This document shows positions 21,315 through 52,249 of a stretch of 64,000 nucleotides of DNA, one piece after another. The notes under the pieces were generated by a model. That model did no database searches. It was given only the letters and a program-made list of their open reading frames with translations, and was not told the DNA's origin. The stretch comes from an uncultured Erysipelotrichaceae bacterium (lineage in GTDB: Bacteria; Bacillota_I; Bacilli_A; RFN20; CAG-826): the NCBI GenBank assembly GCA_902787955.1, contig CADAIJ010000002.1, positions 1 to 64,000 of the forward strand. The letters run 5' to 3'. A program made the position numbers and the translations under genes. Each line of letters starts with the position of its first letter. Within the stretch, counting starts at the first letter, position 1.

Positions 21315-21387
21315 AGCCGACAAAAGCAAAACTACAGTAATGTAGTGACGCAAAGCTATAGGGTCTTAAAAAGATAGCCAGTTGCCA
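21315..21387 (+). ncRNA. Cyclic-di-GMP-I (GEMM) riboswitch aptamer
   Basis: The conserved elements are in order: GCAAAAC; the stem ACTACA-GTAA-TGTAGT with a GNRA tetraloop (21331-21346); the invariant GACGCAAAGC (21347-21356); GCTAT/ATAGC with GGGTCT (21354-21378); and AGCCAGTTGCC (21376-21386). This agrees with the class-I cyclic-di-GMP aptamer. It lies directly upstream of the two secreted genes 21428 and 22282. Confidence 0.9.
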
Positions 21388-21414
21388 ACAAGTATTGGTG
21401 ACTGGTTTTTGTTT
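21378..21414 (+). terminator. Riboswitch expression platform: terminator competing with the aptamer
   Basis: CCAGTTGCCAA (21378-21388) pairs over all 11 positions with TTGGTGACTGG (21395-21405), loop CAAGTA, followed by TTTTTGTTT. The 5' arm contains the 3' strand of the aptamer's P1. Ligand binding should therefore block the terminator, giving an ON switch. Confidence 0.85.
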
Positions 21415-50150: not shown

Positions 50151-50885
50151 ATGAGATCTTTTCAGAATATTAATTTCTATAAAGATTTGTATCTAGATTT
50201 GTTTTTACCTGAAAAGGATGAATTTTACACGATCATCCATTTTCATGGTGGTGGTTTAGTGGAAGGTGATAAAGGTGATACATATAAGTTTGTAGAACAT
50301 TTAGTTAATCTTGGCTTTGCTGTTGCCACTGCAAACTATTCCTTATTACCTAAAGTTAAATACCAAGAAATCTTAAATGATGCCGGTGAAGCCGTTCGAT
50401 TTATTAATGTAAATATAAGTAAATATGGTAAGTCAAAAGGCCTATTTATTTCAGGACAATCCGCAGGAGCTTGGATTACTTTAATGCTTTGCTTTAATAA
50501 ATCGATTTTAGAGTCTAAAAATATCAAAAACGAACAGGTTCTTGGCTGGATCAGTGATTCCGCTCAACCAACAAGCCATTTTAATATTCTTAAAATAGAG
50601 CAAGGTTTAGATCCTTTAACCCAAAGAATTGATGAATGCGCTCCATTATTTTATGTTAATGAAAACACTACTTTCTCAAAGATTTTATTAATGTCTTATG
50701 AAGATGATTTAGCGAATAGATTAGAGCAAAATAAATTACTCTATTCGACATTGAAAAGCTTCAATAAAGACGCTGATATTGAGTTCAAATTATTGAAGAA
50801 GTGGCACTGCCATGGTTCATGTGAATTAGATGATGATGGAGAGTTCGAAGTAATTAAATCGATAAAACATTGGTTAAATATCTAA
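50151..50885 (+). CDS. Alpha/beta-hydrolase, carbohydrate-esterase-like
   Basis: 244 residues, cytoplasmic (no signal peptide). Oxyanion motif HFHGGGLVEGDK, nucleophile elbow GQSAGAW (Ser at about 105), likely acid in MSYEDDLANR, and His in KKWHCHGSC. HGGG plus GxSxG is the hormone-sensitive-lipase/BD-FAE-type esterase pattern. As the last gene of the glycan operon (12 bp after the ATPase) it probably deacetylates imported oligosaccharides. Confidence 0.82.
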   Translation: MRSFQNINFYKDLYLDLFLPEKDEFYTIIHFHGGGLVEGDKGDTYKFVEHLVNLGFAVATANYSLLPKVKYQEILNDAGEAVRFINVNISKYGKSKGLFISGQSAGAWITLMLCFNKSILESKNIKNEQVLGWISDSAQPTSHFNILKIEQGLDPLTQRIDECAPLFYVNENTTFSKILLMSYEDDLANRLEQNKLLYSTLKSFNKDADIEFKLLKKWHCHGSCELDDDGEFEVIKSIKHWLNI

Positions 50886-50908
50886 AATAATAGTTACAAT
50901 ATAAATTA

Positions 50909-51041
50909 GAAAAGGGAGATACCATTTGGTGTCTGTAAGGGGCCTAGTATGAATTATTTAATAGCTTTGCAGACAGCTTATTCATATATGGTCTAGTCAT
51001 TTATTATTACATAATAAATTCAAATTCCTTCTCCCTTTTTC
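50909..51041 (+). ncRNA. Pseudoknotted structured RNA preceding the reverse transcriptase
   Basis: Closing stem: GAAAAGGGAGA (50909-50919) with TCTCCCTTTT (51030-51039). Inside: TGTCTGT (50930-50936) with GCAGACA (50969-50975); TATGAAT (50948-50954) with ATTCATA (50980-50986), extended by CTAG (50944-50947) with CTAG (50993-50996). The last two cross the first, making a pseudoknot. A further hairpin is ATTTATTAT (50999-51007), loop TAC, ATAATAAAT (51011-51019). A U-rich tract (51036-51048) follows, so the RNA may end by intrinsic termination just before the RT start. TACAAT (50895-50900) is a possible -10. Structure was found by eye; transcription is inferred. Confidence 0.7.
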
Positions 51042-51049
51042 TTTTTTAT

Positions 51050-52249
51050 ATGTTAGAGAAACTTTTAGACACTAAATCCTGGAACGAGTTTATTAAAAGT
51101 AAGTTAGATAATAATTACTCTTCTATTTTTACCAAGCGAAAAGTAAATAAGATTTTAGCTAATAATACTTATAAAGACATATCAAAATCAATTGTTGATG
51201 GTGAGTATCAATTTTCAATACCAATCAAACATATTATTTCGAAGAATTCTAGTTCAAAAAGAAGAGTAGTTTATCTTTTAACTTTAGAGGAATCATTCGT
51301 CTTAAAACATATATCCTATCTTTTATATCAATACGATGATTTATTCGCTCCAAATTTATATTCTTTTAGAAAGAAAACCGGAGTTAAATCAGCAATCAAT
51401 GAAATTAGGAAAAAACACAATTTGAGCGGACTATATGGGTATAAATTAGATATTTCAAACTATTTTAATAGCATTAATATCGATCTATTTTTAGATGAAT
51501 TAAAGGATAATGTCGATGATGATGTTTTTAATCTATTCTCTAAATTATATAGTGATAAAAGAGTTAGTTATCGTGGACAAATAATTGAGGAAAATAAAGG
51601 CGCAATGGCAGGTGTACCTTTATCTGCTTTTGCGGCGAACTTTTATATAAGAAATATTGATGAATTCTTCTATAAAGAAAAAGTATTTTATTTAAGATAT
51701 GCAGATGACATTATCTTCTTTGCTAAATCTAAGGATGATAGGGATAAATATATCATTGCTCTTAAGTCTTTATTAAACGAAAAACATCTTTCTATTAACG
51801 AAGATAAAGTTTCATATATTGAGCCAGGAGAATATTTTGAATTTCTTGGGTTTGGTTTTGATGGAAAAACAATTGATATTTCTAAACATTCTAAGCAGAA
51901 AATTAAAAGTAAGATCAAACGACAAGCGAGAAGACTTTTAATGTGGAAAGACAAAAAGAATCTACCACCAGAGAAAGCTTTAATTGCGTTAAATAAGAAA
52001 TTCAACAAAAAGTTCTATGGAAAAGTCGATAATGAAACATCTTGGTCTTATTGGTATTTTCCTATTATAAATACTAGTAAATCTCTAAAAGAGGTTGATA
52101 CTTATTTTCAAGATGAGCAAAGATATCTTTATACTGGACGTCATAATAAAATGAATTATAACAAGTGCCCGTATGAAACTTTAAAAGCGTGTGGGTACAA
52201 ACCTCTTGTTCATGAATATTTCGAATTTAGGAAAAATAAGGATAAATAA
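51050..52249 (+). CDS. Stand-alone reverse transcriptase, defence (DRT/unknown-group) type
   Basis: 399 residues. RT motifs: LYSFRKKTGVKSAI (fingers), YKLDISNYFNSI (motif A, D134), NKGAMAGVPLSAFAANFYI (motif B), YLRYADDIIFF (motif C, D219 D220), LSINEDKVSY (D) and FEFLGFGF (E). Residues about 280-399 are a basic then Trp/Tyr-rich C-terminal domain (SWSYWYFPIIN, RYLYTGRHNKMNYN). There is no maturase or endonuclease domain and no retron VTG motif. The ATG follows the U-tract of the upstream RNA without a Shine-Dalgarno. Single gene between the glycan operon and the gdpP operon, which fits a small defence insertion. Exact class needs a phylogeny. Confidence 0.88.
   Translation: MLEKLLDTKSWNEFIKSKLDNNYSSIFTKRKVNKILANNTYKDISKSIVDGEYQFSIPIKHIISKNSSSKRRVVYLLTLEESFVLKHISYLLYQYDDLFAPNLYSFRKKTGVKSAINEIRKKHNLSGLYGYKLDISNYFNSINIDLFLDELKDNVDDDVFNLFSKLYSDKRVSYRGQIIEENKGAMAGVPLSAFAANFYIRNIDEFFYKEKVFYLRYADDIIFFAKSKDDRDKYIIALKSLLNEKHLSINEDKVSYIEPGEYFEFLGFGFDGKTIDISKHSKQKIKSKIKRQARRLLMWKDKKNLPPEKALIALNKKFNKKFYGKVDNETSWSYWYFPIINTSKSLKEVDTYFQDEQRYLYTGRHNKMNYNKCPYETLKACGYKPLVHEYFEFRKNKDK

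Follow-up and report, generated by a model that had tools for sequence, protein, structure and literature searches.

Organization of the locus

In the window, i.e., the whole stretch of 64,000 nucleotides that was analyzed, the gene of a reverse transcriptase (RT) assigned to the UG26 family is encoded on the (+) strand at 51050..52249. It is immediately preceded by a complete structured RNA of the RT-5 type with a length of approximately 140 nucleotides (50905..51044, (+) strand), which was delimited with the Rfam family RF03026 and with an own covariance model. The place just 5' of the RNA is taken by a gene for an alpha/beta hydrolase (50151-50885), while gdpP is found downstream of the RT. 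The preliminary description of this DNA regarded RT and RNA as an insertion between two conserved operons. This holds true for the downstream side, since gdpP is conserved in the genus, but not for the upstream side, since only 5 of the 24 genus genomes encode the hydrolase. Moreover, the upstream neighbor of gdpP varies among the genus genomes examined. The hydrolase was considered as a partner of the RT and rejected: three of the five genomes encoding it have no UG26 RT, the protein is unrelated to the accessory protein encoded at most related loci (see below), and among the other UG26 loci it lies beside the RT nowhere except in the sibling of the window's locus. Elsewhere in the window, a c-di-GMP-I riboswitch is located at 21315-21389 (62.9 bits).

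The reverse transcriptase

The open reading frame encodes a protein of 399 amino acids composed of an RT palm carrying the motif RYADD and a thumb, confirming the intact YADD motif described before; an endonuclease or any other fused domain was sought in this protein and none was found. Against the PADLOC profile RT_UG26 (PDLC03764) the protein scores 450 bits over residues 1-395 of 399, followed by the profiles for UG27 (137 bits), UG4 (111 bits) and UG17 (DRT10; 108 bits). By this best full-length profile match the RT is a member of the UG26 family, from which it does not differ in kind. In Pfam it is matched by RVT_1 alone. The preliminary assignment as a non-maturase RT is upheld by family scores, as the NCBIfam equivalog for group II maturases reaches 110.7 bits, which is well under its cut-off of 300, compared to the 450 bits for UG26. 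The catalytic residues D134, D219 and D220 are invariant in 20 of 20 relatives. The AlphaFold2 model has a mean pLDDT of 91, and its nearest match in the PDB is the RT of the group II intron GsI-IIC (TM 0.77), with DRT9 at a TM of about 0.64. No reported study on the function of UG26 was found in the literature searched.

Further UG26-related RTs scoring 214-242 bits are encoded in genomes of the window's own family (L006:421-2637 (+), L008:1468-3684 (-), L007 and L009). They carry a GDD motif, a PLD-like domain (Pfam PLDc_2; PADLOC ZacB) precedes the RT in the same protein, and no RT-5 RNA was found near them.

The RNA upstream of the reverse transcriptase and its fold

An Rfam scan of the whole window returned RF03026 (RT-5 RNA) at 50927-51032 with 71.9 bits (cut-off 45.7), and the own covariance model, which covers the full length of the RNA, scores 104 bits with an E-value of 6e-20. 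The window RNA has the same core stems as RF03026; the Rfam match of 104 nucleotides does not contain the outer stem P1, and the base pairs of P2 and of the pseudoknot are not drawn in it.

The outer stem P1 comprises 11 base pairs including one G-U pair (50909-50919 with 51030-51040). Across 41 RNAs it is paired in 97.8% and shows two-sided changes in 9 of 11 pairs, lying outside the Rfam match. Its 3' strand leads into a U-rich tract starting at 51036. P1 encloses P2, a small hairpin of three base pairs with the sequence ACC-AUUU-GGU (50921..50930; 91.9% paired, all three pairs with two-sided changes), followed by the 5' strand of a pseudoknot stem of 7 base pairs (50930-50936 with 50969-50975; 99.2% paired, two-sided changes in 6 of 6 counted pairs). 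The pseudoknot is crossed by P4, which likewise has 7 base pairs (50948-50954 with 50980-50986; 97.2% paired), and its 3' strand is located within the loop of P4 and P4a. P4a is a short stem around the pseudoknot loop (91.5% paired) and lies, like P4, inside P3 (50940-50944 with 50990-50994; 88.8% paired); all pairs of P3, P4 and P4a show two-sided changes. The last stem, P5, is a perfect hairpin of 9 base pairs (50999-51007 with 51011-51019; 98.4% paired, 6 of 6 counted pairs with two-sided changes). The outer stem, the two crossing stems, the perfect hairpin and the U-tract had all been described before from the window alone and are confirmed here; P2, P3 and the short stem in the pseudoknot loop are additions.

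Overall, standard pairs occupy 95.9% of the pair cells in the alignment of the 41 RNAs, compared to 41-47% in slid controls, in which the partners were shifted by 1-3 columns. Two-sided changes were observed in 40 of 42 pairs, and none of 500 shuffles reached the observed values. Because the nested stems formed the model to which the alignment was fitted, the percentages given for these stems lean upward. The pseudoknot is not part of the alignment model, and its 99.2% pairing is therefore the cleaner test. As every stem including the pseudoknot covaries, the compensatory changes that had been proposed as a check on the stems are present, and we conclude from the aligned sequences that the fold is real, pseudoknot included. 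Moreover, the window RNA is more stable than 200 of 200 dinucleotide shuffles (z = -3.83). Its minimum-energy fold has a different arrangement of the core, calculated with a method that cannot hold a pseudoknot. Between 51036 and 51052 no clear ribosome-binding site is recognizable, as the U-rich tract reaches up to the ATG; most relatives are alike in this respect.

Coupling of RNA and reverse transcriptase

For the comparison, 46 loci with an RT start and flanking sequence were used, the window's own included; a 47th consists of an RT fragment only. An alignment of their upstream sequences placed the RNA a short distance ahead of the RT start at almost all loci, and with the own covariance model, which was built from this alignment, the RNA was found just upstream of the RT in 43 of the 46 UG26-type loci. 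Of the three exceptions, one has no detectable RNA (L077), in one the RT is located at the end of the contig (L102), and in one a weak match is placed farther upstream (L103). The reverse approach, starting from the RNA, resulted in RT-5 matches in 14 of 146, 1 of 90 and 1 of 11 genomes, and each of these genomes encodes a UG26 RT. Relatives thus keep the upstream RNA, as the preliminary description had asked to be checked, and its view of RT and RNA as one unit is supported from both directions: judged from these co-occurrences, the RNA is inherited together with the RT.

The exceptional loci have features of their own. At L077 the RT (L077:3143-4390 (-)) scores 498 bits as UG26, and neither an RT-5 RNA nor an accessory gene was found. 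At L103 a divergent UG26-type RT (L103:5941-9021 (-)) is encoded behind two SpoU-methylase-like genes, and the weak RT-5-like RNA (21.6 bits), in which the outer stem and the pseudoknot are well formed by eye, heads this group of genes. Another UG26 RT contains an in-frame stop (L071:2237-3046 (+)); it belongs to the genome G966, in which three UG26-type RTs are encoded.

The distribution of the family is patchy. In the order of the window, full-scoring UG26 RTs are present in three of 279 genomes (G000, G120 and G271), and few were found in the class; in one other family, 40 of 273 genomes encode them. A single-sequence scan of genome contigs found only one near-identical relative. Searches for viral carriage yielded no relative in two RT-based scans and chance matches only in two pattern scans with the RNA.

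An accessory gene at most related loci and the clade without it

At 37 of the 46 loci a co-directional gene is located 5' of the RNA and ends approximately 150 nucleotides ahead of the RT. In a profile search of the 273 genomes of the one family, this accessory gene was detected in 35 of the 40 genomes encoding a UG26 RT and in none of the 233 others, and the matches listed for that family sit at the RT loci. The Fisher test for this co-occurrence yields p = 4e-39, which is not an independent-sample probability because the genomes are related to each other.

Pfam and NCBIfam gave no name above cut-off for the accessory protein. In PADLOC, 18 of 25 accessory proteins show weak matches to RTasCOG2852 (PDLC03793; best E-value 4e-9), so that an association of such proteins with RTs is already on record; a literature search linking COG2852 with RTs found no such report. 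RTasCOG2852 is absent from the window and from the window's genome. In the predicted structure of the accessory protein (mean pLDDT 85) the N-terminal part is helical, and the C-terminal domain finds its best PDB match in a VRR_NUC domain, with a probability of 0.99 but an E-value of 0.017. This match points to a degenerate PD-(D/E)XK-like fold. Two positions ahead of the lysine, 25 of 25 proteins have I, V or L, i.e., the acidic residue of the (D/E)xK motif is absent, and the aspartate position is occupied by D or N, with N in 9 of 25. With these substitutions, catalysis by the accessory protein looks lost.

In the tree of the RTs, the window's locus (L110), its sibling L105, and L106, L076 and L080 form one clade (support 97/94) in which the accessory gene is lacking; it was also sought across the whole genome of the window (94% complete) and was not found. 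Divergent accessory genes are present at L086 and L104 on branches neighboring this clade, making a loss of the gene in the window's clade the simpler reading in a tree with long branches.

A candidate template within the RNA

The conserved unpaired stretch J5/1 (UCAAAUUCCU; 51020..51029, (+) strand) emerged from the RNA alignment as the candidate template. Within it UUCAAA is nearly invariant although it is unpaired. For DRT10 it was shown that the template is located 3' of a stable stem-loop and contains an A-B-A' repeat (PMC12632851). J5/1, being placed between P5 and P1, has the position of the DRT10 template, and we propose with moderate confidence that 51020-51029 serves as template. P5 is proposed as the boundary at the template's 5' end. 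The preliminary description had instead suggested P5 itself (50999-51019) as template. The conserved feature of P5 is the hairpin, while its sequence changes and covaries, so that J5/1 is the better candidate.

Together with 51016-51019, the last bases of P5, J5/1 of the window forms the repeat AAAUUC AAAUUC (AAAUUCAAAUUC), with p = 0.018 compared to shuffles. In the other RNAs the test for an A-B-A' repeat was not significant (p 0.07 to 1). As the repeat is significant in the window RNA only, a repetitive product is kept as a hint.

Relation to known systems and proposed mechanism

Those Class 2 UG RTs that have been studied to date take their template from an ncRNA encoded in cis (PMC13174585). 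A cis-encoded structured ncRNA is also a feature of the UG26 loci (43 of 46), and the likeness of UG26 to Class 2 is based on profile scores and fold matches. Among the known systems DRT10 (UG17) is similar in being a Class 2 UG RT with an ncRNA and in the position of its template. It differs in its RT, as the window RT scores 450 bits for UG26 versus 108 bits for UG17, and in needing a SLATT protein, which was not recognized in the genes adjoining the window RT; furthermore, no general A-B-A' repeat reached significance across the UG26-associated RNAs. DRT9 and DRT2 likewise combine an RT with an ncRNA encoded close by. Outside of group II, the fold of DRT9 is one of the closest to that of the window RT, and the DRT2 ncRNA is described as pseudoknotted, too (PMC12039810). 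However, both belong to other RT families (76 and 56 bits, respectively, on the window RT), and J5/1 is neither a poly-U stretch as in the DRT9 template nor a template of gene length as in DRT2.

The reading that we prefer, with a probability of roughly 0.6, is that RT and RNA form a two-part UG26 ribonucleoprotein of the Class 2 DRT type, which would reverse-transcribe a short segment of the RNA it contains and block phage. The RT-5 RNA of about 140 nucleotides would be produced directly in front of the RT gene and would fold into a closed pseudoknotted core to be bound by the RT. The RT would then copy a short unpaired stretch, most likely the 10 nucleotides between P5 and the outer stem, resulting in a cDNA that may be repetitive, and either this product or the changed complex would block phage growth. 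The binding of the RNA, its use as template, the nature of the product and the antiphage role are all steps that we infer. Points against this reading are the housekeeping-like genes around the relatives, the significance of the A-B-A' repeat in the window RNA alone and the scans that revealed no viral carriage. A more specific version appears doubtful: UG26 might be a further Class 2 DRT type in which a very compact pseudoknotted RNA, with a 10-nt template set between a boundary hairpin and a closing stem, gives rise to a short tandem-repeat cDNA (GAATTT for the window), with a dead PD-(D/E)XK-like protein acting on or sensing this product in most members, and the window's clade working without it.

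The preliminary claim of a new system is not supported, as UG26 is a catalogued RT family and RT-5 (RF03026) a catalogued RNA; PADLOC likewise already contains a relative of the partner gene. Added here are the full RNA fold with covariation of the pseudoknot, the tight three-way linkage and the clade without the partner. No literature naming RF03026 or the RT-5 RNA was found; the original descriptions of RT-5 and of the UG families may already state the linkage. The comparison provides UG26 with a full RNA, a tightly linked partner gene, a partner-less clade and one candidate template stretch. If J5/1 is indeed copied, UG26 would be an ncRNA-templated defence RT of very small size, offering a compact system in which to study how an RT reuses a short internal template.

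Alternative explanations

The RNA could act as a structural cofactor or allosteric switch instead of as template, the RT making untemplated or protein-templated DNA as the Class 1 DRTs and DRT3b do. The RNA is indeed nearly completely paired, leaving free only the approximately 10 nucleotides of J5/1 and a variable loop, and the tests for template repeats gave no significance over the set of RNAs. However, with 399 amino acids the RT is too small to contain the fused alpha-repeat domain typical for Class 1, and the sole conserved unpaired stretch occupies the position of the DRT10 template. We regard this explanation as unlikely.

The RT might also be domesticated for a housekeeping role rather than for defence. 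The genes flanking the relatives look housekeeping rather than like a defence island, which is an impression from the gene tables, and some related loci have both flanks in common. On the other hand, the patchy spread (3 of 279 genomes of the order, 40 of 273 of the one family) and the differing flanks agree better with a defence gene that is repeatedly acquired and lost, and we regard a housekeeping role as quite unlikely.

It is improbable that the RNA is a cis-acting leader that controls how the RT mRNA is translated or terminated while taking no part in the reaction of the enzyme. Its position immediately ahead of the RT start codon and on the same strand, the U-rich tract at its end and the lack of a clear ribosome-binding site before the RT in most members would fit such a leader, but a terminator scan found nothing, the size and conservation of the RNA resemble those of RT-bound ncRNAs, and at the divergent locus L103 the weak RNA match is located ahead of two other genes, approximately 1.7 kb away from the RT.

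Finally, the idea that the RT is a degenerate enzyme of a group II intron and the RNA what is left of the intron, to which the nearest PDB fold could point, was rejected as extremely improbable on the basis of the profile scores and of the absence of group II RNA from the window and from the UG26 loci scanned, all of which have the RT-5 RNA, while five lower-scoring RTs of the same first search are group II intron RTs with an adjoining group II-D1D4-3 RNA. Near a lower-scoring RT, CRISPR repeats are present at L015:2457-2979.
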